This document shows positions 18,187 through 39,600 of a stretch of 40,984 nucleotides of DNA, piece after piece. The notes below the pieces were generated by a model. That model was given only the letters and a program-made list of their open reading frames with translations. It had not been told where the DNA came from and searched no databases. The stretch comes from a virus. The stretch is taken from positions 1 to 40,984 of IMG/VR virus record IMGVR_UViG_3300005265_000017; one strand, given 5' to 3'. Position 1 is the first letter of the stretch, and every line of letters begins with the position of its first letter. Made by a program: the position numbers and the translations under genes.

Positions 18187-20853
18187 TTAGCTGCATACTC
18201 CGCTCGAGTACGCGCAGTTACTACAGAACCAGCAGGTTCCTGATTTACGCAAGAGTTCTCCACATTGTGGGCATGGGTTAGCGTTGATATCGAATGGAGC
18301 ATTCTCGGTTTCAACTGCGGGAGGAATGGTAGAGATAATCTGCAATCCTTCCGTTCTTGGTTGCAGATGTTTTTTCCGCAGGAATTGAGCGATGTAATCC
18401 AGTATCGATGTTGCCATGTGGATTTCACGATGTGCAGTAGGTCCTGCGGGTTCGAATTTAGTGCCCTCCATGTGAGCTAGCAGTACGTCAAGAGGGATTC
18501 CGTACTGGAGAGATTTGGAGAAGAGAATAAAGTAGTTGTCGAGAAGACCGTGAACGGTTGCTCCCGGATTTGCTACGCGTACGAATACTTCGATGAGATT
18601 ACCATTTTCAGGGTCGTATCCCTCATGGATAAATCCTTCGGTGCCGCTTATGGAGAACTTATGACAGTGGGCTTCCCTGTCGTTGGGGGGTTTCCTACGT
18701 GTTGGGACGCTATGTTCTTCTGCTTGTTTCCGTGCTTCTTGTACCCGCATGGGGGAGTCCATCTTACTGTCATCCCGGAAGATCGTGATACATTTAAGCC
18801 CGCTTTCCCATGCTTGCAGGAACACTTGTTCAACGTCCCTTACAGTTGCGTTGTGCGGCATGTTGAACGTCTTCGAAATAGCTCCGGACAAGAAAGGTTG
18901 GATGGCGGCAATCATTTTGATATGGCCGTCTATGGAGATACTCCGAGTTCCCGGGAGTTCATCATGGTGGGTAGTCAGCGCACAATCGAAAACAGGGAGA
19001 TCCTTGTCGTGTAGCGCGGAACCTTCTACATGGCCGTATTTAGCTATGTGGTTTTCTATCTCTTTTATTTCGCTATCCGTGTACTGTAGTTGCTGGAGGG
19101 CCTGGCGCACTAGACTATTCGAGTAAGCGAGTTCCCCTCCTCCCACGAGCTTCTTGTACTTGCGAAGCCCTACGTCGGGTTCAACTCCTGTTGTGTCACA
19201 GTCCATCATAAAAGAGATAGTACCGGTGGGTGCGAGGAGCGTAACTTGACAGTTCCTGAAACCAACCGGGGTTTCCACCGATTTTCGTCTACCAAACCCA
19301 ATGCCTAGTACATCCTGCCATACCTTAATGGCACTAGCGTGGATTCCTAGGTCGTCCTTGTCCACGCTCTTTGCGCTGGCGTAGTGTTGCAAGAGTACTG
19401 ATTCCATGGGGGCAGCGTTATCCTGGTACTTGGCGAAAGGAGCTAACTCTCCCGCGATTTCCATACTGGTACGATATGCCTGCGCAGTGAGAAGGCTTGT
19501 GATGTTCGCTGCGATATTACGTCCTTCGTCGCTGTCGTACGGGAGACCCCATGACATTAGTAAACCGCCTAGATTAGCGTACCCCAACCCTAGGGGGCGA
19601 TACTCACTACTATTCTTTTTTATGAGAGGTGTCGGGTACCCTGCGAGATCTACAATGATGTCTTGTGCGATAGTGAGTAGACGTACTACGTGCTTAAATT
19701 TAGCTGTATCAAATTCCCCATCGGAGGTTGCGAAACGATACAGGTTGATACTTGCTAAGTTACACGCGCTGTCGTTTAACCACATGAATTCGGAGCAGGG
19801 ATTGCTCGCTTCAATAGTCCCAGAGTTGGCGCAGGTATTCATGTTGTTGATCGTCGTATGGAACTGCATCCCGGGGTCTCCGCATTGCCACGCGCACTCG
19901 GCTATCTCGTGATAGAGTTCCTTTACGGATACCATATCCGTTACCATGCCGTCTGTTCGGTTATGCAGAGGCCATTCCGAGTCTTTGCGGTAGTGCATAA
20001 CATCGCGAACGCGTTTCATGAATTCATCGGTAACCCGTACGGAATTGTTGCCGCTCTGATGTTTGGCGTGGTTGTACGCGGTGTCGGGGTCATTGAAATC
20101 AACCTTCATGCCGGTAGACACGAGCCGTTCAACAATTTTTTCTTCGTTGGCTTTACATTGAATGAATTCGAGGATGTCCGGATGGTCTGCATTGAGAATG
20201 ACCATGCGGGCTGCGCGCCGGGTCTTACCTCCGCTAAGAATCACATTAGCGAAGGCGTCGTAGCCCTCCATGAAGGACACAGGACCGGATGCATGACCTC
20301 CTCCTCGGACTTTTTCGTTGGACCCACGAAGATTGGATATGTTGATACCGCTCCCTGAGCCCTCCTTGAATATCATTGCGGAGACTTTAGCCACGTCCAT
20401 GATAGATTCCATACTGTCTTCGATGCTGTTGATGAAGCACGCAGAACATTGGGGATCTTTAACTCCAGGGACACCCAAGTTAAACCATACGGGGCTGTTG
20501 AATGAGGCCATCTGGTGAAGGAGTACGTATCGGAGTTCCTCTGCGAATATGTCACCGTTTACGCTATCGAAATATCCCTGTTGTTCTCCGCTGATAGTAA
20601 GAGCTTTTACGACGCGTTCAATAATTTCACGTAAGCTGGTTTCTTTCTCGTCGGAAGTATGGGATTCCCGAAAGTATTTGTTAGCGGTTATGCGGCGTGC
20701 AATAGGAGACCAAGTAGACGGAAATTCGGCGTGAGGGCAGTGATAAGTAATGCGGTTTTTGTTATCTTTGACGATGACTTCTGTGGTTTCCCAGGTGACG
20801 TTGTCGTAGACACTTTGTCCTTCGCTCGAGAGAACGCGAGAGAACTCTAGCAT
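18187..20853 (-). CDS. nrdJ: Ribonucleotide reductase, adenosylcobalamin-dependent (class II, NrdJ-like)
   Basis: An 888-residue protein with a strong GAGGAGG site before ATG 20853. It reduces ribonucleotides to deoxyribonucleotides using adenosylcobalamin. Family hallmarks seen: 'SFNSPVWFNLG' and 'QCSACF' near residues 117-138, 'EGSGSGINISNLRGS', 'NPCSEFMW' (thiyl-radical Cys with the N-C-E triad), 'CNLASINL', 'APTGTISFMMDCDTTGVEP', and a C-terminal domain ending in a Cys-rich tail with CPQC and CSNC pairs. No NrdB-type radical subunit gene is nearby, as expected for class II. It sits 10 bases after the resolvase gene on the same strand. The enzyme would depend on host or salvaged B12. Confidence 0.92.
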   Translation of the reverse strand: MLEFSRVLSSEGQSVYDNVTWETTEVIVKDNKNRITYHCPHAEFPSTWSPIARRITANKYFRESHTSDEKETSLREIIERVVKALTISGEQQGYFDSVNGDIFAEELRYVLLHQMASFNSPVWFNLGVPGVKDPQCSACFINSIEDSMESIMDVAKVSAMIFKEGSGSGINISNLRGSNEKVRGGGHASGPVSFMEGYDAFANVILSGGKTRRAARMVILNADHPDILEFIQCKANEEKIVERLVSTGMKVDFNDPDTAYNHAKHQSGNNSVRVTDEFMKRVRDVMHYRKDSEWPLHNRTDGMVTDMVSVKELYHEIAECAWQCGDPGMQFHTTINNMNTCANSGTIEASNPCSEFMWLNDSACNLASINLYRFATSDGEFDTAKFKHVVRLLTIAQDIIVDLAGYPTPLIKKNSSEYRPLGLGYANLGGLLMSWGLPYDSDEGRNIAANITSLLTAQAYRTSMEIAGELAPFAKYQDNAAPMESVLLQHYASAKSVDKDDLGIHASAIKVWQDVLGIGFGRRKSVETPVGFRNCQVTLLAPTGTISFMMDCDTTGVEPDVGLRKYKKLVGGGELAYSNSLVRQALQQLQYTDSEIKEIENHIAKYGHVEGSALHDKDLPVFDCALTTHHDELPGTRSISIDGHIKMIAAIQPFLSGAISKTFNMPHNATVRDVEQVFLQAWESGLKCITIFRDDSKMDSPMRVQEARKQAEEHSVPTRRKPPNDREAHCHKFSISGTEGFIHEGYDPENGNLIEVFVRVANPGATVHGLLDNYFILFSKSLQYGIPLDVLLAHMEGTKFEPAGPTAHREIHMATSILDYIAQFLRKKHLQPRTEGLQIISTIPPAVETENAPFDINANPCPQCGELLRKSGTCWFCSNCAYSSGVCS

Positions 20854-20863
20854 TTCAGCCTCC

Positions 20864-21463
20864 TCAAATATTTAGGGTTCTGTCGTTGATAGCTTGTTTG
20901 CGCTTCTTTTGAGACATCTCCCTTATACCCCGGATTGCCTCTAATTGTTTGCGTGTAAATGGTTGTGTTCGTTCAAAGGGTTCGTCAATGGCTAGCGCGA
21001 GTTCAGCTAACCAGGCGGCATCGGCCTCGTCTTCTCTTACGATACCCCAGTTAGGTTGCGCGGCTACTATCATTTTATCTTTAGTAGCGTGTCCTGTACC
21101 TGTTGCAAATTTTTTAAGAGATGTAGGCGGAGCTTCGATAGGTGTAGCGAGTGCTATGTCGGCTAATAGGAGGCGTAATACCCCCCTTACCTCTCCTAAT
21201 TTATCGGCCTGGTTTACACTGTAAAGGGAAGGGCCTTCAATAGCCCCCAGAATAATCGGGGTTTGTCCAAACTCCTGAATAAAGGCTTGTGCGCCGTCCC
21301 TCAATTTCTGTAACCGCAGAGATTCGTCCATTCGAGGGGATGTGGTTAAACGGCGTGTACGGCGGATGAAGGGACCGCCAGGAGGGCAAGTGATAATCGC
21401 AATTCCGGTGCTTGAAATAGACGGGTCGATTCCTACGTAGCTTCTTGACCTAAACGTTTGCAT
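20864..21463 (-). CDS. RuvC-like Holliday junction resolvase
   Basis: A 199-residue protein of the RuvC/RNase H fold. Acidic catalytic residues are visible in order: D13 in 'VGIDPSISSTG', E76 in 'AIEGPSLYS', and D145/D148 in 'EDEADAAWLA'. The basic pair K128/K130 in 'TKDKMIV' matches the lysines before the last motif in RuvC. It cleaves four-way junctions, probably resolving replication intermediates before packaging. Only a weak AGG site precedes ATG 21463. The last ~50 residues are Lys/Arg-rich. It is first in the minus-strand RNR block and diverges from the + gene at 21503 across 39 bases. Confidence 0.85.
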   Translation of the reverse strand: MQTFRSRSYVGIDPSISSTGIAIITCPPGGPFIRRTRRLTTSPRMDESLRLQKLRDGAQAFIQEFGQTPIILGAIEGPSLYSVNQADKLGEVRGVLRLLLADIALATPIEAPPTSLKKFATGTGHATKDKMIVAAQPNWGIVREDEADAAWLAELALAIDEPFERTQPFTRKQLEAIRGIREMSQKKRKQAINDRTLNI

Positions 21464-23408: not shown

Positions 23409-24764
23409 CTAGTATTTGCCGTAAATTTTCCGGTCTTTATGTTCTGTTTGGGAGATGTAGTGAAAGGTTTCCCAGTGAGAATACACTTGTTCTAGTGTAC
23501 TAGCTTCGGCCCTGAACCAGGTTTCTCTGCGTTGTCCCTCCATGTAGAAGTGTGCCCGTAGTTCATCCCGATAACTCTGTGTAATTCCCAATAGCGGATA
23601 TGTTGTTCTACGCCACTTCCCTCGATTTGTGGGGCTTCGGTAGAAACGGGCAAGTTCGATTAGCACAGCTTTGAGTTCTGGGTTGATGGGGAGTTCTAGT
23701 GTGGGGGTGTGGTCTTCCCCGTATTCAAGAATGAATGCTTCAGCTTCTGTAAAGTTATCGAAAAATTCTATGTCCTTCCACGGGAGGGTATGTCGGTGTA
23801 CCCCGAAAAGGAGAGACGATCCTCTAGGATTTTTCCAACCTATCCCGAAAGTTGTCCAATAGATACACCGCCGGTATCGTTTATTCAGCTTGTAGGAATT
23901 AGCTAACAGGAATGCCAGTTCTTCATCAGTGAAGGGTATGTGTACTCTGCGCAGGATTTCGACTGTTGCGTCTCCTGCGGTTTTCGGATAGGGCCCATCA
24001 CACCATCTCCGAGTATCCCGACTTCGTTGGTCGTGACACGTTTCTCGAACAAAACACTGTGAGCACGCCTCTTTTTCGAATCGACGGAATCGTGTTTGTT
24101 CTTTACGTCCTTTCGAGATTTGCTCAGATTTATAGTCGATAACGCCGAAGTCATGCCAACCTGACGGGCGAAAGGTATTCCCGAAATCTTCTGCGAGAGT
24201 GAGCCGGGGACTGAGGTAGGTGAATCCTCCTATTTTTGTTTTTCGGTTTTTGAGTTTGCTTATGAGATCTGCTGCGGTTATTTCGCTGCTACGTAGGCGT
24301 TTGAATATACAGTCTTTGGGATTGTCTTCTTCTTCTTCATAACACCGCCTACATCCTAAAATGGACTTTTGAGGGAGCAAGCAACTGTAGTAAACGTCGT
24401 GAAGGTTGATTTCTTGAATCCCGTTTTCGGGGGTATGTACAACTGCTGTAGTATGTTTATCTGCGCGTTCTAGAAGCTCCAAAAGTTCGGACCCTACGTC
24501 AGTATGTAGTTTCCACCCGACATATGTAGCGTCTTCGCCCGATGCGAATTCCTCCCGGGAGAGCATATGAGTCCCGGGAATGAGTTCTTGTAGTACAGGG
24601 TCGTGCAGAATGAGATGCTGTGTTGCGGGGTCTAAGATCTCAGGGTCGTTAGATCGAGAAACAAACAACAAAACAGCTGGGCAATCTCCCGAATGCCATT
24701 GACGTTGGTTTCGCGCGTCATCGTGGATAGCCACAGTAAATAGTTTATCTGGAGTTTCAAGCAT
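23409..24764 (-). CDS. Unrecognised Cys-rich protein encoded after the reverse transcriptase
   Basis: A 451-residue protein. ATG 24764 lies inside the end of the RT gene (8-base overlap) and has an AGGAGG site. Two cysteine groups are visible: C138, C141 and C152 ('GCRRC...DC') and C234, C237, C243 and C255 ('ACSQCFVRETC' then 'RRWC'). The second has C-x2-C-x5-C spacing, the same as the last three Cys of WhiB-type 4Fe-4S proteins, so a metal or Fe-S site is plausible. The C-terminal ~200 residues are rich in aromatic and basic residues with no motif I know. Sharing an operon with an RT, it may be an RT partner or effector. It is the last gene of the minus-strand run. Confidence 0.6.
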   Translation of the reverse strand: MLETPDKLFTVAIHDDARNQRQWHSGDCPAVLLFVSRSNDPEILDPATQHLILHDPVLQELIPGTHMLSREEFASGEDATYVGWKLHTDVGSELLELLERADKHTTAVVHTPENGIQEINLHDVYYSCLLPQKSILGCRRCYEEEEDNPKDCIFKRLRSSEITAADLISKLKNRKTKIGGFTYLSPRLTLAEDFGNTFRPSGWHDFGVIDYKSEQISKGRKEQTRFRRFEKEACSQCFVRETCHDQRSRDTRRWCDGPYPKTAGDATVEILRRVHIPFTDEELAFLLANSYKLNKRYRRCIYWTTFGIGWKNPRGSSLLFGVHRHTLPWKDIEFFDNFTEAEAFILEYGEDHTPTLELPINPELKAVLIELARFYRSPTNRGKWRRTTYPLLGITQSYRDELRAHFYMEGQRRETWFRAEASTLEQVYSHWETFHYISQTEHKDRKIYGKY

Positions 24765-25932
24765 TGTTCGTTCCCTCCTGGAACAGGGCTACTGCGGGTT
24801 TGAATTCCAGCATCAACTTCTCTCCCTTGTAGGGATTGATCTGTGAGATGTAATTTATTTTGCCGCGTAACCATGTTAGGAGCGCGCCGCCGGAGGGTTG
24901 TCCCGCTCGTTCTGCTTGGGAGTCAAACCCATGCACCAGGCAGTTATGTGTTATTGCTCTTACCCTCCGGTATTCTGCATCAGGGATGTTGGGCTTCTGG
25001 TTAAATACAGTCCCCAGGAGGCGTCTGCCGTAGTACCCGTGAGCTATCCTCGTTTTGTCTGGGTTTACTCGATAACCTACGCTGTGAACGATACTCCGGA
25101 TATCCGCGATGAAATTTTGCGTTTCCTCTTTGGTAAACGTTCTACCGCAGGTAAAGGAGAGATCGTCGCAGTACCTTGTATAGACCCATCTGTTAGGTCC
25201 CTCTAGTCCGTGGCATTCATTTTGGTTTTCTAAATAGCTGAGTATGCGTTGGTCTATCAGGCTATCTGCGACTAGATTGCATATCGCGCCAGACGCAGGC
25301 GAACCTTGCGGGACTCCCGATAGGTATTTGGGTATCCAAGTACCTTGAGGATATTTACCTCTATTTTTGTATTTAGGATTTGGAAAGTCCGTTACGGTGA
25401 GGAGATTAGCCAGGAGACCTGCGACGTCGTGGTTGTACCCAAGTTTCTTGAAGTAGTTTCTCACCATGGCGCGGCTTGTTGACGGAAAGAAGTCTTTCAG
25501 GTCCATGTGGACGTAGAGTCCTTTACGTGGGCAGTCATGACTTTTTGGTGTCTTGTCTCCTGCTTTTTCACAAATCTCACACGGCGGAATATGCTGGAGA
25601 ACTGCGTGGCGACAGGAAAGACCCTTTCGATACGCAGTTACGTGTTCTCCTAGCTGATCCTGAAGAGGGATGAGGTATTTCACATGAAGCTGCCGCAATA
25701 ACAGTTTCATGAGATCGGTAGGTGCGTGGATAATCCGATGTCCCTTTTTCTTTTTGGGAATCCTGTGGACCGTGTACATCTCGTCTTTGTTTTCGAGGAC
25801 GTACCACATGACCTTATTGCGGAACCCCAGGCTGAAAGCCAGGGAGCAATCATCGAATACGTAGGGAATCTCCTCGGGGATATCGGGAAGTTCGATGATT
25901 TCGATGGTTGTTTCGTTGAACCCCACGCTCAT
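24757..25932 (-). CDS. Retron-like reverse transcriptase with a Cys-rich insertion
   Basis: A 391-residue RNA-directed DNA polymerase. Motifs in order: 'RIPKKKKGHRIIHAP' (~57-71), 'AYRKGLSCRHAVLQH' (100-114, the FxxGxS...NAxxH region), catalytic 'MDLKDFFPS' (D144), 'GVPQGSPASG' (206-215), 'YCDD' (254-257), 'NPDKTRIA' (~290) and 'RRLLGTVFNQ' (303-312, where retrons have VTG), then 'LRGKINYISQINP'. This order and the PQGSP motif 4 fit retron/G2-intron-related RTs and not diversity-generating RTs (which carry SQ). There is no maturase or endonuclease domain. Between H114 and D144 lie ~20 extra residues with C118, C121, H132 and C134, a possible zinc knuckle. The start has a GGAGGTGA site and overlaps the upstream gene by 4 bases. 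Role in the phage unknown. Confidence 0.88.
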   Translation of the reverse strand: MSVGFNETTIEIIELPDIPEEIPYVFDDCSLAFSLGFRNKVMWYVLENKDEMYTVHRIPKKKKGHRIIHAPTDLMKLLLRQLHVKYLIPLQDQLGEHVTAYRKGLSCRHAVLQHIPPCEICEKAGDKTPKSHDCPRKGLYVHMDLKDFFPSTSRAMVRNYFKKLGYNHDVAGLLANLLTVTDFPNPKYKNRGKYPQGTWIPKYLSGVPQGSPASGAICNLVADSLIDQRILSYLENQNECHGLEGPNRWVYTRYCDDLSFTCGRTFTKEETQNFIADIRSIVHSVGYRVNPDKTRIAHGYYGRRLLGTVFNQKPNIPDAEYRRVRAITHNCLVHGFDSQAERAGQPSGGALLTWLRGKINYISQINPYKGEKLMLEFKPAVALFQEGTNNA

Positions 25933-26597
25933 GCGTCACCTCCTATCTCTTCGATAGACCGCATGCTGTTGCGGAAAAGGTCACTGTCGAGGGGGAGTTC
26001 TGATTCGATCTGCTCCCTGCACTTGTGTGTCCCGGGGGAACATTCCCCAGTATGAAATTGCGGGAGACATTTACAGGCAGCGCATAAGAGTGGGATAACT
26101 CTATTGGGGGTGTGGAAAGCAATCTGGGGCATGGATACCTGGTTGTTATGCCCCCGTTGGATTGCCCGGGTCATCAGGTATACGACTTCGGATGCGTACG
26201 GATTTTTGAAGTTCTTAGTATCTCGGTACTTACTTTTGACGTGGGTGGGGACAATCATGGTCCACCCTTTGGGGTTGCGTACAAGGTTACGATCCTGGAA
26301 GTTATCCTGGGCGCGGCCCGGCGACCCCGCACGCCGGTTATCATCACGAATAACGGTGGATTCACGAATGTCGGATACGTTCAAGGAATTTAATGCATGT
26401 AGCAGGTCTTTTGTGAGAGGCATGGAAAGGTAATAGCGGAATGTTTTTCGGAAGATGGGAGCTATCTTGGTGCGTACCAGATAGACCCGGTCGTAGGGAA
26501 AGTAGTCGTATGCGGGACGTGTTTTTGTGTGTCTAAGTTTGCGTTGCGCTATTTTGACACAGATAACGGAGTCCCGTTTTGCCTGCGTAGCCTGCAT
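25929..26597 (-). CDS. Unrecognised basic Cys-rich protein upstream of the RT
   Basis: A 222-residue basic protein with an AAGGAGA site before ATG 26597. Its end overlaps the RT start (ATGA), so the two are coupled. The N-terminal ~60 residues are Arg/Lys/Tyr-rich, as in nucleic-acid binders. Residues 172-193 hold C172, C175, C177, C186 and C193 with H182 and H191 nearby, a likely zinc-binding module. No family is recognised. In retrons the RNA gene occupies this place; here a protein gene does. It may bind RNA or DNA for the RT, which is inference from charge and position. Confidence 0.6.
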   Translation of the reverse strand: MQATQAKRDSVICVKIAQRKLRHTKTRPAYDYFPYDRVYLVRTKIAPIFRKTFRYYLSMPLTKDLLHALNSLNVSDIRESTVIRDDNRRAGSPGRAQDNFQDRNLVRNPKGWTMIVPTHVKSKYRDTKNFKNPYASEVVYLMTRAIQRGHNNQVSMPQIAFHTPNRVIPLLCAACKCLPQFHTGECSPGTHKCREQIESELPLDSDLFRNSMRSIEEIGGDA

Positions 26598-26611: not shown

Positions 26612-28339
26612 CTAGTTATCGATCTTCAGTACTCGTGGTTGCATGTAGTCGTCTTCGTTACCGTTGCTCGTAAGTACCCAGATGAGAGGGCATGCGGGAA
26701 GGTATTTAGGAATGGGTCCGTGTGGCGGACCTACGGGGGCGTAACCATCAGTCAGGATTATCGCCATGTCCGGGGGGTCTTTCATAGGCTGTTCTTCGCA
26801 GACTGCCCCTGCCGCCCAGTCGTTTTCCGTATCCATGCCACACATGTAGCGTAAGGGAGGAGAAAAGTCGGTGCCTCCGCACCCGTAACGGTTGATACTC
26901 GTGTAACGTTCCTTAGCGAACTTCTCCATATCATCGGGAGAGAGGACCTTTTCGTACTGGATAGCAGCGTCGAACATGATGAGGCGCACCGAGACTTCGT
27001 CTTCTTGGTCCATGATTCCTTTAATCTCTGCCATGAAGTCGAGGAAATCTTTTTGGCTCACACTTCCTGAAGTATCCACCATGACGGACATGCTGAACGC
27101 GAAGTTCTTCTGGAATCCGGGATAGGGTTCCATCCCCTCGTCTTCAAGATGGAAGAACGAGGGATTAGGGTAGGCAGTGCTCTCGTCTAGCTTGGAAGAG
27201 AGCTCTGAGCGCATCATGTTTTTGAATACTATCTGCCAGGGGATCGTGGGTTCATGAAGAAGGTTTTCGATGGCCTGCATAAAGGCTCCGGGAAGCGTGC
27301 CCCGACTCTTCTTGGTTTGCTCGATAGCATTTTTGGTGATGCGCTTGGCTTCCCGTTTAGCGCGGTCTATTGCCCTTTCTATCTCTGCACTTGTCATTTC
27401 GTCGAATTGGAGGTCACTCGGAATGTTGGGAGGGTTTTGTTGGTTCAAGAGATCTTTGAACCATTGAGGGTAGTTGTCGTCTAGGAGGTCTCCCGGAGGT
27501 ATACGGTCTTCGCCCATTCCTGAACCTCCCCCATTGTCGGCATCGTCTGTGTCTTGGTTATCAGGGGCACCAGTTCCTCCTGTAGACGGGGTGGGAGGTT
27601 CGGCAGTAGTTCCAGAGGGAGGTGCATTTCGAGTTGGCGGCGGGGCAGTTGAAGAATCTCCTTTATTATTTTCGGGAGCTCCTGCGTTTCCTCCAGATTG
27701 ACCTTGTTGACCTGAGTTATCAGGTTGATTGGATTGATTGCCATTGAGTCCTCCTAGGACCGGCGCAGTTGGGAGGTTTTCGTCGAATCCGTGAGCTTTC
27801 AGATCTCTCAGGAGTTCGTTGAAATAGTATTCGACAGTTTCTCCTGTGGGGTAATCGCGGTCTTCGGGCCAGATAAATTCTTTTGTGTACTTGGTGAAAA
27901 CCCTCTTACGCGGGTCATTGATTAGCGGGCGTACTGCAATGTCATTCGCGGCCATATCTTGCGCGACATTCATCACAGGTTCGAGACGTTTGAATTTGGT
28001 AAGGTTATGCACTTTTAGGCGCAGACGAAGACTCTTTTCCAGATGTTGGAGCGCTAGATGTGCGGCTTCGTGTACTACTACGAGTAGCTGGAACGGGCCG
28101 TCTTGGCGTACAAACCAATCAGGTTGCCATATCAACATGTAGCGACCCTTGGTATCCAAGGATACCGCAGCTGTCGGAGGCCACAGGTCTTTTCGGGGTG
28201 CCCTCCCACAACCGTTGAGAATGCGCCCGTAGAAGTTGTTTCCCCCACGAGGGCTACACAACCACTGGAGGGCCACGGACATTGCGTTGTTCTTTTCCTC
28301 TTCGGTGTACTCTTTTTCAGTCGTCATTTCCTCTTCCAT
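26612..28339 (-). CDS. Putative metallopeptidase with VWA-like domain (DUF2201/CobT-like)
   Basis: A 575-residue protein with an AGGAG site before ATG 28339. The N-terminal domain carries H90-E91-x-x-H94 ('VVVHEAAHLAL'), the zincin motif. Residues ~190-285 are a low-complexity Gly/Pro/Asn/Asp/Thr linker. The C-terminal VWA-like domain has the MIDAS start 'VMVDTSGSVS' (D422) and a late 'ILTDGYAP' (~530). This order is that of the DUF2201 family (metallopeptidase plus VWA-like), which pairs with MoxR-type AAA+ ATPases; a MoxR gene lies 1.8 kb away on the same strand. The downstream Cys-rich protein and RT follow after 14 bases, so it leads the RT operon. Substrate unknown. Confidence 0.75.
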   Translation of the reverse strand: MEEEMTTEKEYTEEEKNNAMSVALQWLCSPRGGNNFYGRILNGCGRAPRKDLWPPTAAVSLDTKGRYMLIWQPDWFVRQDGPFQLLVVVHEAAHLALQHLEKSLRLRLKVHNLTKFKRLEPVMNVAQDMAANDIAVRPLINDPRKRVFTKYTKEFIWPEDRDYPTGETVEYYFNELLRDLKAHGFDENLPTAPVLGGLNGNQSNQPDNSGQQGQSGGNAGAPENNKGDSSTAPPPTRNAPPSGTTAEPPTPSTGGTGAPDNQDTDDADNGGGSGMGEDRIPPGDLLDDNYPQWFKDLLNQQNPPNIPSDLQFDEMTSAEIERAIDRAKREAKRITKNAIEQTKKSRGTLPGAFMQAIENLLHEPTIPWQIVFKNMMRSELSSKLDESTAYPNPSFFHLEDEGMEPYPGFQKNFAFSMSVMVDTSGSVSQKDFLDFMAEIKGIMDQEDEVSVRLIMFDAAIQYEKVLSPDDMEKFAKERYTSINRYGCGGTDFSPPLRYMCGMDTENDWAAGAVCEEQPMKDPPDMAIILTDGYAPVGPPHGPIPKYLPACPLIWVLTSNGNEDDYMQPRVLKIDN

Positions 28340-29431: not shown

Positions 29432-30193
29432 ATGGAACACCTCCTGGAAAAATTCGCGAGCAAAATGCCCTCGCTGTCGGGTTACATTGTAAAGACAGCC
29501 CAGCGTGCGGATATCGCTCGACAGTTTTTGCGGGAATCGGATGAGAGGTCAGCTGCCGTCCTCTTGATGGCGTTACGTACACTCCACGGAATCGACGCCT
29601 TCTATTGGGAGCCTGAGACTATTTGGTTGACGTTAGAGCGGGATGACAAGGTGGAAACAGAAGAGCTGGGGCGTAACAAACTTCAAGCAGCGCTCACCTT
29701 AATCCATAACCCTGCGTTTTTCTGGGATAGTATCGTGTTTCAGCGGACAACACAGGCGTTCAATGGAGAGCCCTTTGATCCCGAAACGCTCCAAGAGTGC
29801 CATCCCGGATACATGGCGTGGGCCGTTTACGAAGCACGTCTTATCCGCGGGCTTGATCCGGATGAACCAGTTTCAGCGGAGATTGATGAAGATGTACAGC
29901 AGTACATAGCAGTATGTCTCAAGCGTGCCGGGTATGTCTATCCTCCCACACAGCTAAGTGTCGTATCCGATAATCTAGAACGGATGCTCCCGAAGACGAC
30001 AAAGCCATTCATCGAAGAAGTAAAAAAATCGTGGGAGCATCTCGACAAGGGGGCCCTCGCAGAACGTAAGTTCCAGGAGGACCCCCTTGGCGTTCAACTT
30101 GCACAATTATCTAGTTGTTACGAATACGTCAGGGCGCGCGCGGATGAGATGGCGACCGAAGTGTTACAACTAGACCGGGCGCTCACTCCGTAA
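29432..30193 (+). CDS. Hypothetical helical phage protein
   Basis: A 253-residue protein starting 4 bases after the previous gene. It is mainly alpha-helical, with 'LRESDERSAAVLLMALRTLHGIDAFYWEPETIWLTLE' near the start and a C-terminal helical stretch. No cofactor, membrane or catalytic motif was seen. It overlaps the end of the convergent MoxR gene by 11 bases. Probably co-expressed with the 338-residue protein. Function unknown. Confidence 0.6.
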   Translation: MEHLLEKFASKMPSLSGYIVKTAQRADIARQFLRESDERSAAVLLMALRTLHGIDAFYWEPETIWLTLERDDKVETEELGRNKLQAALTLIHNPAFFWDSIVFQRTTQAFNGEPFDPETLQECHPGYMAWAVYEARLIRGLDPDEPVSAEIDEDVQQYIAVCLKRAGYVYPPTQLSVVSDNLERMLPKTTKPFIEEVKKSWEHLDKGALAERKFQEDPLGVQLAQLSSCYEYVRARADEMATEVLQLDRALTP

Positions 30194-31403
30194 CGTTTTC
30201 GTCCATCTTTCGGAACTGTGTGTCGATCTCTAACTGGAGATTGCACCAGCTATCGAAATCCTGGAGTTCACGCATCAGGGCGTTCAAGTATTCTATAGCC
30301 TTGTTTTCTTCTGCGATTTGCCGCATTTGGAACAGCATGGCTCCCGCCATTTCTAGCGGGTGGAGTTCTATGAACTTCAGGAAGTTCCTGGCGGTTTCTT
30401 CGGGATCGGGTGTCGTAGCGAACATCAGACGCAAGACGTTTTGGTCCAAGTCTCCTAGAGCTTCGTGCATCGACTTCTCAACCATTTTCTTGATCGCAGA
30501 CTTTACCTTTCCGAAGTTACGGAGAACGTCGTCTGCGCCTATGGTCATGTCCTGATTTTTCAGGTGTGCTACAAGCTCTGATGCCATCGTTACCCCGATA
30601 GATGCGGAAAACCGTTGCAGAGCAAATTCGCTATGAACTGGTATTCCGCGAGCTTCCATGTTGTAAGCGTCTTCGCTAATTGTCTCGATATTGGCGGGGC
30701 AGTTGTATTGCTTCTGTGACTTCAGTGCTTTCCAGTCATAGATGTTGTCTGGCTTCGCTTTGAAGTAACTAAGGATGCCGTCGTGGCAAGCTTTTCCTTG
30801 TGCTGCTCCCTTACCAAATAGATGGAACCTCTCGGTAGATGCGTGTTTCATGAACCCTTTGAGGTCCGGAAGTACGTAGAAGAACTTCACGCGGCGTCGG
30901 ATTGCTGCCTCGTTCTCGATGGAGGTAACGTTGTACTCCGAGGTTGAGGGGTTCATGGTTCCTGCTACAAGACACTGTTCGGGTACAACATAGTTGAACA
31001 TGCGCCCGTCCTCCATCATCGTGAAGAACTGATTGATAGCATGCTTTAATCCGCGGTTGAGCTCATCGAAGAGGATAATTTTCTTTTCATCACCCTTCGG
31101 GAAAATCTCGGGGACCGCTACCTTGAAGAAATCTTCGACTGTACGAACCGGAATACCTGATCCCATCAGCCCCCAGTGTGCGGTGTGTACTGGGACTACT
31201 TCATAACCGGTGTCGTGAGATATCTGTGACCAGATCTGTGTTTTTCCGATGCCGGAGTCCCCGACGAGGATTATGCAACCTCGACGTTGATGAAATTCTA
31301 ACGAGAGACGTATTTGCGCTGCAGCCTCTGCTAGTGTAACCTGAGGGATATCCCGCAAGTCCGCGTACTTAGGGATTATCTTTTCTTCTTTCTCACTTGC
31401 CAT
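30183..31403 (-). CDS. MoxR-like AAA+ ATPase
   Basis: A 406-residue AAA+ protein with an AAGGAGAGAAGC site before ATG 31403. Walker A is 'GDSGIGKT' (48-55), Walker B 'IILFDELNRG' (D113, E114), sensor-1-type 'VAGTMNPS' (~147-154) and an arginine cluster 'AAIRRRVKFF' (~165). The 'FDELNR' version of Walker B is typical of MoxR/CobS ATPases, which act on a VWA-domain partner and load metal or remodel a target. The VWA/HExxH gene on the same strand is the obvious partner, though two + strand genes separate them. The start is 33 bases from the divergent terminase start. Its physiological target here is unknown. Confidence 0.82.
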   Translation of the reverse strand: MASEKEEKIIPKYADLRDIPQVTLAEAAAQIRLSLEFHQRRGCIILVGDSGIGKTQIWSQISHDTGYEVVPVHTAHWGLMGSGIPVRTVEDFFKVAVPEIFPKGDEKKIILFDELNRGLKHAINQFFTMMEDGRMFNYVVPEQCLVAGTMNPSTSEYNVTSIENEAAIRRRVKFFYVLPDLKGFMKHASTERFHLFGKGAAQGKACHDGILSYFKAKPDNIYDWKALKSQKQYNCPANIETISEDAYNMEARGIPVHSEFALQRFSASIGVTMASELVAHLKNQDMTIGADDVLRNFGKVKSAIKKMVEKSMHEALGDLDQNVLRLMFATTPDPEETARNFLKFIELHPLEMAGAMLFQMRQIAEENKAIEYLNALMRELQDFDSWCNLQLEIDTQFRKMDENVTE

Positions 31404-31435: not shown

Positions 31436-33049
31436 ATGAGTAACTTAAAGCGATACCGGTTGAGTGATGTTGCGCAGTCTTGGCTGCGGCTGGATGGACA
31501 CCCCTTTCGTTTAGCTGATTGGCCGATGCACCGAGAGTTTTACGACGGGCGTTACCGCCGCACATTGTTTAAGACAAGTCGTCAGGTGGGTAAGAGCGTT
31601 ACGATGTGCAACTTCAGCATCATTGAGTGTGCTCTTATACCGCATTTCTCTACATTCTTTGTAGCTCCCACAAAAGAGCATACCGTCAGGTTTTCCAACA
31701 CGAGACTGGGAAAGATAATGCGGTATTCTCCCATCATACATAAGACCTTCCTTAAAACAGACCTGACTGACCGTGTATTCCATAAGCAGTTTACTAACGG
31801 GTCAGAGATGCTGCTTACGTACGCGTCGGATAGTGACGAGCGTGTCCGTGGTCCTTCTACCCACCGGAATATGTACGATGAGGTGCAAGACATGCTGTAT
31901 GACCCGGTTATCACGGTAGGTAATGAGACGATGGCCAACTCTCCTCACGCTTACGAGACATACGCTGGGACACCCAAGACGATGGAGAACACCATTCAGT
32001 ATCTCTGGGAGTTGTCTACACAGTCTGAATGGGTGATGAAGTGTGACTCTTGCGGATCTTATCAGTTTATAGATACGGAAAAGAGCATCGGTAAGTTAGG
32101 TCCTGTTTGTCTGAAGTGCGGTGCGTACCTGAACCCGTTCACTGGACAGTGGGTCGACATGAACCCTATAGATTATGCTAACGGGGAGGATGAAGACACC
32201 AAGCTAAAAGGTTTTCATATTTCACAGCCGATCATGCCGTTCAATGTTCCGAAAGCGATGGAAGGACGGGGGGAAGACCATGCTGTAGCTGTCCGTAGGT
32301 GGAAACGTCTTTTGGATAAATTCGAAAACAGTCCAATAACGGCGTTCCGTAACGAAGTCTTAGGGGTTTCAGACGCTATCGGAACGCGGATGCTCTCCAA
32401 GCAGGAATTACTAGATCTGTGTACCGACTACGAGATGTTGGACAAGCCAGAAGACAAGACATTCCAAGGTATTTCCTTTACGGTAGGGGGAGTTGATTGG
32501 TCCGGCGGCGGTACTACCGGTATCTCGCGTACGGTCATGTGGATATGGGGATTTCGTCCGAAAGACCAGAAGCTGGTTACACTTCTTTACAAAGTATTCC
32601 CCGGGATCAACCCGGTTAATGTTATCGACCAAATCGGTACAATTTTTGACTCCTATCGGGTTCAACTTGTTGTGGGTGACGCGGGGGAGGGGCATACGGC
32701 TAACGATCTTCTGCGAAACAAAATAGGGCATCACCGGGTTCAACAAGTACAGTACGGGGCACAGAAAGAGGCCATTAAGTGGAACGGAGTAGACCGCTGG
32801 ATGGCTGATAGGACTACTCTTATTGATAACTACTTCATGGGACTAAAAAGAAGAGAATTTGAATTCGCTCACCGCGACCAGATGGGAGTCGCGGTGGCTG
32901 ACATTCTTAATGAGTATGAAGAGATAACATCTTCAGACCGAAGAGTGTGGAGGCATTCCCCACAGAAGCCAGATGACTGTTTACACGCCGGTCTTTTCGG
33001 TTGGCTTGCCTTTAAGATGACGCAAAACGATATGCGATTCTATCAATAA
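31436..33049 (+). CDS. terL: Terminase large subunit (TerL)
   Basis: A 537-residue DNA-packaging ATPase/nuclease. ATPase: Walker A 'TSRQVGKS' (47-54), Walker B 'NMYDEVQD' (145-152) and motif III 'TYAGTP' (175-180). A zinc-ribbon insertion lies at C203/C206 and C225/C228. Nuclease: D354 in 'GGVDWSG', D415 in 'VVGDAGEG' and D513/D514 in 'DDCLHA', the three acidic positions of the RNase H-like domain. No ribosome binding site is evident upstream of ATG 31436, and an in-frame stop at 31430-31432 excludes a longer start. The stop (33047-33049) is followed at once by the helix that opens the structured RNA. Confidence 0.92.
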   Translation: MSNLKRYRLSDVAQSWLRLDGHPFRLADWPMHREFYDGRYRRTLFKTSRQVGKSVTMCNFSIIECALIPHFSTFFVAPTKEHTVRFSNTRLGKIMRYSPIIHKTFLKTDLTDRVFHKQFTNGSEMLLTYASDSDERVRGPSTHRNMYDEVQDMLYDPVITVGNETMANSPHAYETYAGTPKTMENTIQYLWELSTQSEWVMKCDSCGSYQFIDTEKSIGKLGPVCLKCGAYLNPFTGQWVDMNPIDYANGEDEDTKLKGFHISQPIMPFNVPKAMEGRGEDHAVAVRRWKRLLDKFENSPITAFRNEVLGVSDAIGTRMLSKQELLDLCTDYEMLDKPEDKTFQGISFTVGGVDWSGGGTTGISRTVMWIWGFRPKDQKLVTLLYKVFPGINPVNVIDQIGTIFDSYRVQLVVGDAGEGHTANDLLRNKIGHHRVQQVQYGAQKEAIKWNGVDRWMADRTTLIDNYFMGLKRREFEFAHRDQMGVAVADILNEYEEITSSDRRVWRHSPQKPDDCLHAGLFGWLAFKMTQNDMRFYQ

Positions 33050-33570
33050 CTATTGTCGCTGTTCTCAGTAGGGTTCCTTGGGCTGTGGAACACTACTGGA
33101 TTGCCAAGCAGACTTCATGGGGTCGGGTGCCCATGAGGTCTGCGCGTACATTTAGCCGCTAAGAACGGAGCGTAGCGCTCCTGCGTCTCATGAGAGAAGC
33201 TCCGACAATAGTCGCTGTCATCGGCTGTTAGTTTTCTGGGCGACCCCTCGCCCAGAAGAGTAACCGCATGGCGCGGGGTACTGCTGGTATTTGCCTACCC
33301 TCCTCGAGAAGCCGCTCTGACGTATCCGTGTAACGGTACGTGGAAAGTGCGGACTCTCGAGGAGGAAGAGGCAGGGCACTGCTGTTCTCCTGTGAGCTGA
33401 CAGCAGCTCGTTAGGAGGTACTGCTGTGAGTTAGGAGACTGGGCGCCGTGCGTGGGCGTGCAGGGCGTCACGCCTGCGAGTCCCGCAGAGGCTGCGCAGG
33501 TTTCCTAATCGCAATGAGCGTGCTAAGGGTCAACAACGGAACGTAACGTTCCTTCTCCTCATTCTGTTGC
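33050..33570 (+). ncRNA. Large structured non-coding RNA (candidate, GOLLD/ROOL-like in setting)
   Basis: No ORF covers 33050-33611. Helices I can pair by eye: 33050-33058/33203-33211 (9 bp, perfect, starting right after the terL stop); 33066-33071/33093-33098 with 33073-33077/33087-33091; 33108-33121/33130-33143 (14 bp, one U·G); 33167-33172/33176-33181; 33234-33243/33248-33257 (10 bp, CCCC loop); 33265-33274/33443-33452 (10 bp, long-range, one U·G); 33292-33296/33369-33373 then 33299-33309/33355-33365 (11 bp perfect); 33320-33324/33337-33341 then 33326-33329/33333-33336; 33484-33488/33492-33496; 33513-33518/33558-33563; 33538-33543/33547-33552. The wobble pairs are U·G only if the + strand is the RNA, which supports that strand. 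It may be transcribed through from terL. After ~33570 I see nothing until the polymerase stop at 33612. Family unassigned. Confidence 0.72.
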
Positions 33571-33611
33571 CACACAGATAGAGATCCAGTACCGAAAGCT
33601 TATACCGTTGC

Positions 33612-36600
33612 TTAGCTCAAGTTTGTAAAGTCTTTGCGTATCTCTTCTTCGATTAAGTCATAATCTTCTTGGTTGAATTCAACTACAGGATGTTCTGACA
33701 AGTAACTCTCCACGGATTGCAGTTCTCCGTAAGAGGGGCCTACCTCAACGTCCCATTGGAAAGGAACAGGTAACCAAGGGTATTGTTTAGCTACACGTCG
33801 AACGCCATACTCTTCAAAGAATTCTGGCATTTGCCCAATGTATTTTTTGGGGAGTTCGAAAACGATGGAGTCATGTACGGTAATGAGCAGTCGACCGCCC
33901 AGCTCTCGAATGGGGTGGTCTACGTCGCAGAGAACGCCCAGCACGATATCGGAGCTTGTACTTTGGATTTTGAAGTTTACCGCTTGGCGCTCTGCCTTTG
34001 CTATGAGGTATCGTGTCATCCCCTGAAGATCGAAACGTCTGCGACGACCAATAAAAGTCTCTACGAGTCCCAGATGGTGTATCTGGTCTTTGGTGATTTC
34101 GATGTAACGAGGAATAGTAGGAAACATTCGAAATAGTACATCGATAATTGCTTGGGCTTGGTCGTGGGGGATACCCACGATAACTGAAATTTTGTTTTTA
34201 CTCGCACCGTAGAGAATTCCGAATACCACCCGTTTAACGTTTTTGCGGAGTTTCCCCAACTGTTTACCGTACCAAGGGTCTTCTTTCTCTATGTGTTCTC
34301 TGTTCTGGAAATCGTCGTAACTCCAGGCGTGTTCATCATCGATTCCGATGGTGTCCAACACCGTTTTTTTATCAGATGCGGGTACTCCTTGGAGCACACT
34401 TTCTGGGTTGTATACCATTGAAGAGAAAAAGCTGTGGGGGTCCATCCCGTCGTTAAGGGCTTGGATAAGATTTGCATCGCCGCTATACGCCGCATAGATT
34501 CGCACTTCAGCGGCTTTGGCGTCGGCATTTACTATTAGTTGATCGTCTCGTTGGGTAGGTATGAATATCTTTTTGATATTGTGATTGCCGATTCTCTTAG
34601 GAATATTCTGCATATTCTCATCTGAAGAAGACAACCTACCTGTTGCAGTCCCGGCGATATGGAAAGACGTATGCATCTTCCCGTCTTCCCGACTCAAGGC
34701 TCGGATGTTCTCCACGAAAGTGTTACGTGCCTTACTAACTCCTCGATACACAAGAAGCTCCTTAGCAAAAGGACACTCATGTTGGGTAACGAGGCTCCGT
34801 AGGAACTTAGCATCTGTAGAGATTTGGCCAGTTGGTGTGTAAGTAACTTCCTCATCTGTTAAATGGTTATAAGAAATAATTTCACAACTTTCGGGATGAT
34901 AGAACCCCGTACCGAACAGTATTTTGCGGAGGTGTGCTGTACTGTTGGGGTTAAATTCATCGTCGAAAGTATTTGGTGGGATCATTTCGAAGAGCTTCAC
35001 TTTGGACATAGCGATAGACTCGTCCATGTCAATTACCAGGTCTTCGATGTAGGGGAGGTCTACCGCCATCCCGTAGAGTTCCATGTCTGCCAGAACTCTG
35101 GATGCAGGAACTGCCCGCTCGAACATTATATCTTTAAGAGGGTCCTTAGCGTTATTACCCGGCGCTGCGATGCGTTTGAAATGTTTGCTCTTCGCTAGCT
35201 CCGCTCTACGATGTCGCAGTTGTTGGTTTTCCTCATGTATGCGAGCTCGTTGTAGCGTAATGAGTTGGCGTGTAACGTCTGCGTCGACTGCCCCGTACTC
35301 GTTAAGCTCTTTGAGGGGGATGTTGATAAACCCTTCGTCTTCTGCCAGTTTCTTAGCAACACCCTTAAGCTCGCTCTTGAGACTGTCTTTGGTTTCGAGG
35401 GTTTCTAAGATCCCCTGTAATTGGTCTTCGTACCCAGAATATTTAGGGAGCATCAATTTTGTGAGGGCCTTCAGGCTGTAATACCCGCGCTTATCCTCAG
35501 ATATCAAGTGCTCCCCCAGCATGGTGTCCCACGCGAATCTCCGTACTTCCCAGCCCTTTCGTTTGAGCACCTTTAAGTCAAACTTGGCGTTATGAAATCC
35601 TTTGGGTTTAGGACATTGGAGTAGCTGGGTGATGTAGGGATGTACTTCTTTTAGCGTCCAAGGAGTTTCCGGATGCTCAATAGGAATGGACGCGGCGAGT
35701 CCCGGACCCCAGGACACTACTAGACTGAGTATTTTTAGTTTATCCCGGTGGGGGTAGAGGGTATTCGTCTCTGTATCTATCGCGATTACGTGGTTGTCTG
35801 GATTTTTTCCGTCCTGGGAGTACTCCACAATCATCTCAACGAGTCGTCGGACTTCATCTAATTTTTTAGGGAAGACGTAATCCTTTATTAACTCTGAGAG
35901 GGGTGTTTCTGTTTGTACCGGTGTTCCACTTTGTAACCCGTACACTGCGTCCATGAAGATTTCTACATGGCGTTGGAATATTTTGTAGTACCCGCTCTTA
36001 ACTAGCAGTGCGCGCTTTGACAATGTAGGAAAGATAATTACACGCCGCGGCCCAAGACGTCCTTCTATGAACTTACCTTGAACCGCGGCATATTTACCCA
36101 CCTTGATACCAAAGGACTGCACGACGGAAGGGCCGAGTGCGAATACCATAAGGGGACGATCCTGATGTTTCGCACACTCTAAGAGCTCCTCTCGGAATAG
36201 CGGGAAACAACAGGTACGCATTTTCTTTTTGGGCTTATCCACACTACATCGGACAGAGGAGGTGAAACGTCCTGCTAGATTAAGTGTGTGCGGATGCGTT
36301 TTCTTGTACGTAGTGAAGGTGTCTTTTACTACCTTCTCTACATCGTACTTCCACGGAGTATGTGTATCGAGTGCTCCAGAAGGCCCCGATAGATACGGGG
36401 ATTCCGCTACGACGAAGAAATCCGCGCTGGTCGCTCCGATTCCCTCTGCGTAGTGTTCCTTCCGGTAGCACTCACATTCTGGACACTTGGGGCCTTTCCA
36501 GGCGTTTGGACCACAGAGATTACACTGTAAAAACTTCGAAGTGAGGTCCTCGGGTTTTATGTCTTTACCACTCGTGGTCGCTGGCGTCTTTGACGATTGG

Positions 36601-36629
36601 TTTGGTGGGTTCACCTTGTTGATTGTCAT
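33612..36629 (-). CDS. DNA polymerase, family A, with N-terminal UDG-like and 3'-5' exonuclease domains
   Basis: A 1005-residue polymerase. ATG 36629 is preferred over GTG 36647 because a GAGG site sits six bases upstream of it; both start inside the primase gene. Residues ~30-235 look like a uracil-DNA-glycosylase superfamily domain with C36/C39, C49/C52 and C128/C140 as possible Fe-S or zinc ligands, 'VVAESPYLSGPSG' and 'VFALGPSVVQSF'. Residues ~280-460 form a DnaQ-like exonuclease: D285/E287 in 'AIDTETNT', D351 in 'FHNAKFDLKVL', D449/D451. Polymerase: 'TATGRLSS' (661-668), motif A 'NADAKAAEVR' (D703, E708), motif B R795-K799-F803-Y807-G808 and motif C 'VHDS' (H919, D920). A UDG-like domain on a PolA enzyme is also known from SPO1-type phages. 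Confidence 0.92.
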   Translation of the reverse strand: MTINKVNPPNQSSKTPATTSGKDIKPEDLTSKFLQCNLCGPNAWKGPKCPECECYRKEHYAEGIGATSADFFVVAESPYLSGPSGALDTHTPWKYDVEKVVKDTFTTYKKTHPHTLNLAGRFTSSVRCSVDKPKKKMRTCCFPLFREELLECAKHQDRPLMVFALGPSVVQSFGIKVGKYAAVQGKFIEGRLGPRRVIIFPTLSKRALLVKSGYYKIFQRHVEIFMDAVYGLQSGTPVQTETPLSELIKDYVFPKKLDEVRRLVEMIVEYSQDGKNPDNHVIAIDTETNTLYPHRDKLKILSLVVSWGPGLAASIPIEHPETPWTLKEVHPYITQLLQCPKPKGFHNAKFDLKVLKRKGWEVRRFAWDTMLGEHLISEDKRGYYSLKALTKLMLPKYSGYEDQLQGILETLETKDSLKSELKGVAKKLAEDEGFINIPLKELNEYGAVDADVTRQLITLQRARIHEENQQLRHRRAELAKSKHFKRIAAPGNNAKDPLKDIMFERAVPASRVLADMELYGMAVDLPYIEDLVIDMDESIAMSKVKLFEMIPPNTFDDEFNPNSTAHLRKILFGTGFYHPESCEIISYNHLTDEEVTYTPTGQISTDAKFLRSLVTQHECPFAKELLVYRGVSKARNTFVENIRALSREDGKMHTSFHIAGTATGRLSSSDENMQNIPKRIGNHNIKKIFIPTQRDDQLIVNADAKAAEVRIYAAYSGDANLIQALNDGMDPHSFFSSMVYNPESVLQGVPASDKKTVLDTIGIDDEHAWSYDDFQNREHIEKEDPWYGKQLGKLRKNVKRVVFGILYGASKNKISVIVGIPHDQAQAIIDVLFRMFPTIPRYIEITKDQIHHLGLVETFIGRRRRFDLQGMTRYLIAKAERQAVNFKIQSTSSDIVLGVLCDVDHPIRELGGRLLITVHDSIVFELPKKYIGQMPEFFEEYGVRRVAKQYPWLPVPFQWDVEVGPSYGELQSVESYLSEHPVVEFNQEDYDLIEEEIRKDFTNLS

Positions 36630-39600
36630 GTGCGGCCTCACTCTCACCTTGTTGGGTGTTCTTCGCTTCTTCTGCTGCCCGTACAGCGTCGTCTAGCGCT
36701 TCCTGGGCAGAGTTCAACCATCGGTCAGCGCGGAACACTACAACATCTTGGAGCTTGATACCTGCTCCCAAGTAGGGTCCGACTTTACGGAGAATATTCG
36801 TAGCTTGTACTTCTTTGGGAGTGAGGGCTGCATTATGCCGTTCTAGCGTATCTTTTAACCTCGAACCCGCCATACCTCTTGTCTTGAGATGATTAGGTAA
36901 GAGACGCGGGACCGCTTGGTCGAGGAGCAGCAAGAGGAGTTCTTTTTCTTCATCGAAGAAAACCCCACAAGCCGAGCTGTTGATCTCGGCACGCTTCTCG
37001 GGGGAGATGAGTAACTGCGAGACTGCTACATTGATGTTGTCGTCTCTCTGGAAAATGACGGGGTTGTACAGCATTGCGTTAAGGTACGTTTCCGATTCCG
37101 AAATCGTAGTAGCTCGCTGGATTATGCTCTCGTTGCTAACCACGTACGATTTGAAGAAAGACTTCCAATCAAGCCCGAGGAACTTCATAACCGCCAGGGC
37201 ACTGAAGAGAGAGGATGCAAATCGCCATTCCACAGTAAACGGGAGGGTAGCCTGAAGATCTCTGAACTCTTTTCGTATCTCTTTCTCGTATTGCGCGAGA
37301 ACCTGTGCGTGGGGGTACATTGCGGTAGCGATTTGCCGCCCCATCTCCGCTATGCGGTCTTCTCCAAACTCATCTAGGATGACAGTTATCGGGCTGTTCT
37401 TCCCGGTAATCTTCTTCATCTCAATCATGAGCATCCGGTTCAAGTCTTGCGGACGTTCCGCTCCTTGAATGGCGGCGAAGATGATAGGCATCCTCAATAT
37501 GGATTCGTAGTGGGACCCATCGGGGCGACCACGAACGCGCTTGGTTTCCCCAGAGATGAGGCCACGCACCATTTCCAAGATCTTCCTTACCTCTTCACCC
37601 ATCCTGTTATCGCTACTTTCGAATTCATCGAGGACGAGTAGCAGCGAATTGGCGTTGCACATGCTTGCGACTGACGCTGCAGTGTAGTTTTCTGTGCCTT
37701 GGGATGCGTAGAGTAGTCGAACTTGACCGTATCCGAGTCCTGAGAAAGTGGATAACAAGCTCGTTTTACCCGAACTAGTGTCTCCTGTTACGAACATGAG
37801 GAGCGGTCTTTCGAAGGCATCCATGACCGGGAACGTCAGCATGAGAGCTGCGAGAAGCTGTGTTGTGATGTCCTGATTTTTGAATTTGTAACCAATATCG
37901 AATAGGTGGACGAGATCGTCATAGAGTTTCTTCAGGTCAGTATCTTTTCCATCTTCCAGTTTCTTGACGGATAGGCCGGTAGGGAACCAGGGTTCTTCTA
38001 CGTTACCCCGGATACCAACATCGAAGATGACTCCATTATCGGAAGGTCCTTCAAGTTGTTCGTACGTTAACTTGTCGCCCTCTCTCCGCAGGGCAAAAAC
38101 ATCTGCGCCACAAACGATATATTCCACACGCTGTTTGGTTGGAAGATCGATACAATGATAACCCTGACGATATTGACGTGATGACATGAAATCTGGTGCT
38201 CCTCTAGCCAGGCTCTGAACGGCTTCTCTTACGTAATAACGTATTTGCCGGTCTAGCTTAGGGCGTACAAGCCCCTCGTTTCCTTGATCTGGCTCTTCAA
38301 GGAAAGAGGGAAACCCCACTTTCTCGACTACGAAATCAAATAGGGTGCCCACGATAGGGGCAAGCTCTTGCGCCAATGACTGTTCACTGTCTAGTTTAAC
38401 ACGGTTAAACCTTTTGTTTTTCTTATCGTAAAGTACGAGATAGCGGTTGCCTGCGGTAGTTTCTGTTCCTACGACAAACAGAAGCTCTTTCAGGGCATCT
38501 GTGCATCGCATGATGAAACCGTTTTCACTCTCTTCACGTGAGGCTATCTGTCGTTTGAGGATACTAGCATTGACGTTGTACTTATTGGCTACCGCGTCAG
38601 CAAATGCTTCGCACTCTAAGCGGTGCCGTAGATATTTGCCGTGCTCTGCTGCACGTTCTATGAGATTTCGGTAGTCGTGTTCTGGCACTGCGTCGAGCTC
38701 TATGGAGGCACATTCGAATGCCCAATCCCACGCAGTAGTAAAGTGGTCTTTGAATTTACCCCACAGGACTTCGGATACCTTGGGTTCCCCCAGTTTTACA
38801 ACGGCTTCATCTACGTCGCCACATCCTGCGAGAGAGTCCCAGCCGGTAAACACTCGAGTTTCCAGCTTGCTGATTTTTTCTAGCCAGCTTCTAACAACCT
38901 CGTTACCTCTCTTGGAGGGGGCATCCCCTACTAGGAAGGCTTTGGAGATACCCGAAGCGGTGAGAATAGGTTCAATATGCGCAGCCCCACCGCGTCCGCC
39001 TACGGAGAACAGCGGGTATTTGGCAGATCCTTGCAGTGCAAATCGAGACATCACGGAGAGTACATCAATCTCTCCTTCCGTCAGATAGGCAAAATCTACT
39101 TGAGCGTTCGGAGTAGTGAAGAGATCGTACTGATTCCAACCAAGTCCGAAAAGCCCAAGGAGATCTTCAAAATCATCATCAGGAATTGTAATGTCTTTTT
39201 TACTCTGGCTATGCGGTGCTCTTAGTTTTAGTCGCCCGATTTCTTTGGGGTTAACGTGGAGAGGAAACAGGAGAGCACCAGCAAATGTCGCTCCGCGTAC
39301 GTAGTTTTTTAAGTATTCGAATGCCGCGTCCGCTAAGTTTTGCGGTTCTGCCTTCCCTCCCGGAGCGTTCTGCCATTGCTTATGTCTGCGCCTATAGCGG
39401 TCAATCATGAACTTCTGGAGTCGCGCTAGTTCTGGCATCACTCCAACAGGGAGAAGGTGAAGAGTATCTTTAGGTATTTGGCGAACATTGATTAGCCAAT
39501 CGAGTGCTGGCTTAGCTGTTTGATATTCTTTCGTGGTAGGGTCTGCTAGTGCGTCACACATGTACGCATGGGTTACCTGAAATACCTCCTCTTTCATCTG

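Follow-up and report, generated by a model that had tools for sequence, protein, structure and literature searches.

Candidate tandem retron-type RNAs between the terminase and DNA polymerase genes of an uncultivated phage with its own retron-type reverse transcriptase

RESULTS

In the window (the whole 40,984-nt stretch of viral DNA that was analyzed), the convergent genes terL (31436-33049, + strand) and polA, encoding DNA polymerase A (33612-36647, − strand), flank a gap at 33050-33611. No open reading frame (ORF) of at least 60 amino acids was found between them, which bears out the gene-free region that an initial annotation had described directly after terL. RNA folding of the gap gave z scores of −9.56 for the + strand and −6.85 for the − strand, a stability that none of 100 shuffles reached, and the gap was the top structured cluster of the window (z −3.53; runner-up, −1.72). 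The strong helices named in that annotation were also located, namely, an 11-bp perfect stem (33299-33309/33355-33365), a 14-bp stem (33108-33121/33130-33143, U-G at 33114/33137), and the sequence of a long-range 10-bp helix (33265-33274/33443-33452, U-G at 33269/33448) that is missing from the minimum-energy fold. Its suggestion of membership in GOLLD or ROOL found no support, as scans with Rfam covariance models, including those of GOLLD and ROOL, matched the gap to no family and returned only chance-level matches or tRNAs.

Searches with TerL yielded about 50 distinct related contigs plus more distant ones, many of them from phages of 140 to 197 kb. Among these relatives the terL-polA gap ranges from 0 to 3.2 kb; most gaps of at least 150 nt are strongly structured (z of about −3 to −13), and terL itself mostly is not. 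In the distant TerL relatives Arash and D181, coding sequence follows terL. The gap element is modular, in that the same domain recurs, its sequence ever different, in many terL-polA gaps and at a second locus. Each domain comprises a helix P, at least one long variable hairpin A, a short hairpin B with a three-base loop and a G-C closing pair, a hairpin C, and fixed junction bases adjoining P. Triloop hairpins of the B type were enriched in the gaps. A descriptor of the P helix, the B triloop hairpin, and the fixed junction bases, derived from part of the sequences on which it was tested, gave 25 matches on one strand and 1 on the other in 50 kb of gaps. The flanks, totaling 1.55 Mb, contained 2 matches, and one of these is actually a gap in a truncated contig. 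P helices mostly differ in sequence between domains with pairing retained, and the C regions of the 25 domains, which were not part of the descriptor search, folded better than shuffles (mean z −1.27). Covariation from whole-gap minimum-energy folds or two-sequence consensus folds proved noisy or biased and was discarded; local hairpins and unit tests were used instead. Watson-Crick pairing was retained in 40 of 74 double changes in local hairpins (null 1/3, p = 2e-4). A conserved, structured non-coding element with compensatory changes among its homologues is thus real, as had been proposed.

Independent genome scans revealed a second, syntenic locus, set between a lysozyme-like gene on one side and a small gene and a nucleotide kinase gene on the other; G012 (the L001 phage) has two units there, and G005 has three. 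The same units were read by eye at the syntenic place in G014, a genome that has no terL-polA gap. A TAAAGT..GTTAACGT motif of locus 2 did not recur in the window and was dropped. The distribution and build of the domains bear on two alternatives. A REP/BIME-like palindromic 3'-untranslated array, protecting or terminating the converging messages on both strands, would suit the position between convergent genes, the near-perfect palindromes with wobble pairs free of strand bias, and a terminator-like hairpin that follows at locus 2 in G005. Such an array is very improbable given the fixed orientation of the domain (25 versus 1), the long-range P helix enclosing several hairpins, the conservation of unpaired junction bases and linkers, and the clean absence of the element after terL in related phages whose convergent genes touch. 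Symmetric Watson-Crick palindromes next to polymerase and terminase genes might also form a single-stranded DNA structure for replication, recombination, or packaging; copies at several loci per genome, absence after terL in some phages, and a promoter-like motif at fixed spacing (see below) all speak against this, and we consider it very improbable.

Further structured regions were observed in the group. One is a hairpin field of more than 2 kb, with many three-base loops and no evident gene (L130:12830-15300, at 145.8 to 148.3 kb of G010). Another is a structured stretch of ~700 nt in G005 (L158:13100-13800) with an imperfect stem of roughly 40 bp, which adjoins tRNA genes and for which tRNAs were the sole Rfam matches. 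One contig of the group with a minimal, single-unit gap (L062 / QMZE01000001.1, L118) is binned in an Archaeoglobales metagenome-assembled genome, reflecting either its host or mis-binning.

Read on the − strand, the gap displays the order of a retron: a1, a G, two short msr hairpins, a long variable msd hairpin, and a2. All unit coordinates below refer to that strand. Unit 1 spans 33593 to 33277, beginning with a1 (GGTACTG, 33587-33593) and a candidate priming G at 33586. Folding then places msr hairpin C at 33558-33583 and msr hairpin B, with a GGAACG-TTA-CGTTCC triloop, at 33538-33552. By the layout of the unit, three msd segments follow, each ending in a copy of a2: segment 1 (33424-33537) with CAGTACC (33417-33423); segment 2, a short hairpin (33382-33416), with CAGTGCC (33375-33381); and segment 3, a long hairpin that includes the 11-bp perfect stem (33284-33374), with CAGTACC (33277-33283). 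All three copies pair with a1 at 7 of 7 positions, the second through one G-U on the − strand. Unit 2 spans 33212 to 33049 and starts with a1 (ACTATTGTCG, 33203-33212) followed by GAGC. Its layout gives msr hairpin C (33183-33200), msr hairpin B with a GGAGCG-CTA-CGCTCC triloop (33167-33181), and an msd (33059-33166) that includes the 14-bp stem (33108-33143); a2 (CGACAATAGT, 33049-33058) shares the final base of the stop codon with terL. The a1/a2 pairing measures 10 nt in unit 2 and 7 nt in unit 1 and shows compensatory changes across phages, among them an A-T to T-A change in L001 that affects a1 of unit 2. In retrons, the priming G stands directly after a1, usually within AGC. A candidate priming G directly follows a1 in 31 of 31 listed units, found with a descriptor that required that G in most of them; the full GAGC surrounds it in part of the units only, with GAGC in unit 2 and GATC in unit 1.

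In the clade of the window, a2 occurs in several copies downstream of a single a1/msr, and a separate hairpin precedes each copy. Linkers pairing at all 7 positions with the single a1 account for 3 of 3 in the window, 9 of 9 in L001, 3 of 3 in both L002 and L019, and 4 of 4 in L023; nine, in L001, is the highest number of a2 copies behind one a1/msr, and in eight of these the pairing includes a G-U found on the − strand alone. The near-identical phages L018 and L019 differ by the loss of one array stretch. A different arrangement was seen in the L003 clade, in which each phage carries three tandem units with a common msr block, a conserved msd end, and differing a1/a2 pairs. Across 12 units of this clade with near-identical msr, a1 and a2 lie ~130 nt apart and are complementary over at least 7 nt in 10 of 12, versus 3 of 60 control tails. 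The possibility that the repeated linker acts as a small-RNA sponge was considered and abandoned because every linker is complementary to the single a1.

A retron-type reverse transcriptase (RT) of 391 amino acids with a YCDD motif is encoded elsewhere in the window (24757-25932, − strand); it matched PADLOC RT_XIII (4e-51), Pfam RVT_1, and the NCBIfam model of retron St85 (7e-37). Nearly all of its PDB matches are named retron RTs (Ec67, Ec86, Ec78, Kva2), and it is far closer to retron models (7e-37) than to Drt2 (1.7e-7) or Drt4 (0.008), with scores that lie under the NCBIfam cut-offs of single retron families. In addition to YxDD, the protein carries an invariant His and an invariant Gly at the sites of retron regions X and Y, reading AVxxH and LLG versus NAxxH and VTG in retrons. 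The RT gene is overlapped by two conserved partner genes, p222 (25929-26597, − strand; 4 invariant Cys) and p451 (23409-24764, − strand; 7 invariant Cys), whose predicted structures were weak (pLDDT 50 and 61, respectively), p451 having no significant fold match. Genes of the RT operon overlap or lie 15 nt apart and therefore leave no room for a template RNA in cis. A search of the window for a template repeat/variable repeat pair of a diversity-generating retroelement near the RT found none; the sole direct repeat of at least 40 nt is a 117-nt, 82% identical pair at the window start (124-240/313-429), far from the RT. Also near the operon are genes for a VWA/metallopeptidase-like protein (26612-28339, − strand) and an ATPase (30183-31403, − strand); a VWA gene lies near the RT in 6 of 6 genomes checked.

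The RT is encoded in 27 of 30 records of the phage group, and its relatives among named phages share 24 to 26% identity with it. In the three records lacking the RT, the gap is coding and triloop hairpins are absent (Fisher p = 0.028 over 24 related records, kinship ignored). L031 and L034 encode the RT and have no triloop hairpin in the gap, and several RT-bearing phages have no gap, G014 being the only one of these in which units were seen elsewhere.

The initial annotation had taken U-G wobble pairs as evidence for a + strand RNA. Wobble fails as a strand test because G-U and A-C interruptions are nearly equally frequent across related gaps and both are rare: local hairpins hold 14 G-U and 12 A-C, and longer stems show only a weak bias, with 44 and 27 in one count (p = 0.057) and 148 against 138.6 expected from composition in another (p = 0.26). 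Strand-resolved, composition-controlled folding energies of 28 gaps favored the + strand (Stouffer z −4.7, compared with −1.0 and +0.5 for coding controls), with a z of 0.02 for the window itself. This preference might reflect selection on a + sense DNA product, although that explanation is ad hoc.

Other features point to the − strand. A promoter-like GGTATAAG lies at 33599-33606 (− strand), 5 nt upstream of a1 of unit 1, and a conserved promoter-like GGTAWAAN precedes a1 by 4 to 5 nt in seven lineages (the window, L001, L002, L015, L016, L019, and L023). In many lineages the 8-mer GGTATAAG or a close variant is found on the − strand behind the polymerase stop, and its constant spacing looks like that of a promoter that would start an RNA at a1. 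Copies of GGTATAAG stand 17 to 70 nt before several ORFs in other genomes. Two further copies in the window, at 20922-20929 (−), 68 nt upstream of a class II ribonucleotide reductase gene (18187-20853, −), and at 31634-31641 (−), inside terL, both recur at homologous sites in G012 and G005. A terminator for a − strand RNA was looked for and none was found. The structured non-coding element of the initial annotation stands; its assignment to the + strand, favored by the asymmetry of folding energy, is doubtful, since the − strand is indicated by the retron architecture, by the wobbles in a1/a2 pairing, and by the conserved promoter-like motif.

In a further alternative, the gap would encode a large, ornate structural or scaffold RNA with a GOLLD/ROOL-like function, which would have no connection to the RT and would be made on the + strand by extending the terL message at its 3' end. 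Its size, extreme structure, and phage setting, the better folding of the + strand beyond composition in 28 gaps, the P helix that overlaps the terL stop codon, and another structured locus adjoining tRNA genes in G005 are compatible with this idea. We nevertheless regard it as unlikely, as no Rfam match was obtained, the promoter-like motif enters the gap from the other side at a fixed distance to the helix, the same orientation at locus 2 would be antisense to the flanking genes, and the repeated a2 copies would be left unexplained.

DISCUSSION

Structure, repeated units, a1/a2 complementarity, a promoter-like motif at fixed spacing, and a conserved retron-type RT are all present in this phage group. 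We propose, with a probability of roughly 0.75, that the gap holds tandem retron-type RNAs on the − strand, belonging to a trans-acting, multi-template phage retron that uses the phage's own RT. The initial reading was supported in part, and retron msr-msd units tied to an RT of the same phage were not foreseen in it. Because the RNA lies at 33.0 to 33.6 kb and the RT gene at 24.8 to 25.9 kb, the system is classed as retron-like in trans and not as a standard member.

From these features we infer transcription, pairing of RT with RNA, a priming site, and a DNA product as follows. On the − strand, the GGTATAAG promoter at 33599-33606 would drive transcription of the tandem RNAs. Unit 1 would provide one a1, an msr made up of two short hairpins, of which one has a YWA triloop, and three msd hairpins, each with its own a2, and unit 2 would be a standard a1-msr-msd-a2. 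The RT (24757-25932) would bind the msr in trans and use as primer the 2'-OH of the G that immediately follows a1, with a1 paired to one of the a2 copies, and reverse transcription of the hairpin adjoining the paired a2 would yield branched single-stranded DNA. An RNA that carries several a2 copies could give rise to several different msDNAs. The hairpins are almost purely Watson-Crick, with equal G-U and A-C, as would be expected if folding were required of the RNA as well as of its DNA copy. Extended to the phage family, the proposal is that a core retron RT acts in trans on RNAs from several loci, a single a1/msr serving up to nine interchangeable msd-a2 cassettes that are gained or lost as units and yield a set of msDNAs per transcript; we judge the case for this wider version to be evenly balanced. 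As a guess, the phage might use such products to exclude competing phages or as a decoy for host single-stranded-DNA sensors or DNA-binding defenses.

It would be new for a retron that its RT acts on repeated RNA templates at scattered sites, and a literature search of limited coverage found no tandem, trans, or multi-msd phage retron. If true, the proposal would turn the usual roles round, with a phage family having a retron RT as a core gene together with tandem multi-template RNAs. It would also open the use of msDNA by phages to direct testing, provide a natural blueprint for making several single-stranded DNAs out of a single transcript, and probably explain what the unannotated, strongly structured gaps of dozens of uncultivated phages are.

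Retrons are known as bacterial defense systems in which one RNA lies beside one RT. Their msr-msd layout is defined by complementary ends a1 and a2 of 8 to 30 nt (PMC6868368), and a short msr stem capped by a three-base loop serves as a binding site of the retron RT (PMC6868368). As in the bacterial retrons Eco1/Ec86 and Eco2/Ec67, the phage units show the order of a1, candidate priming G, short msr hairpins, long msd hairpin, and a2, have an msr stem with a three-base loop, and share a genome with a retron-type RT (nearest to PADLOC RT_XIII). Compared with the 8- to 30-nt range (PMC6868368), a1/a2 of unit 2 falls within it (10 nt), and that of unit 1 is just short (7 nt). Unlike in bacterial retrons, the phage RNA is encoded 7 to 8 kb away from the RT and occupies more than one locus instead of sharing one cassette with it, the units are in tandem, one msr may be followed by several msd-a2 cassettes, and the RT belongs to the core genes of large phages and not to a host defense island. 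GOLLD and ROOL resemble the gap in being phage-borne, highly structured, and several hundred nucleotides long, but the gap matches no covariance model and is built of repeated small domains in variable number. RTs of the DRT2/DRT9 type likewise combine an RT with a structured template RNA; in contrast to these, the phage RT is nearer to retron models, and its RNA has flanking complementary ends.
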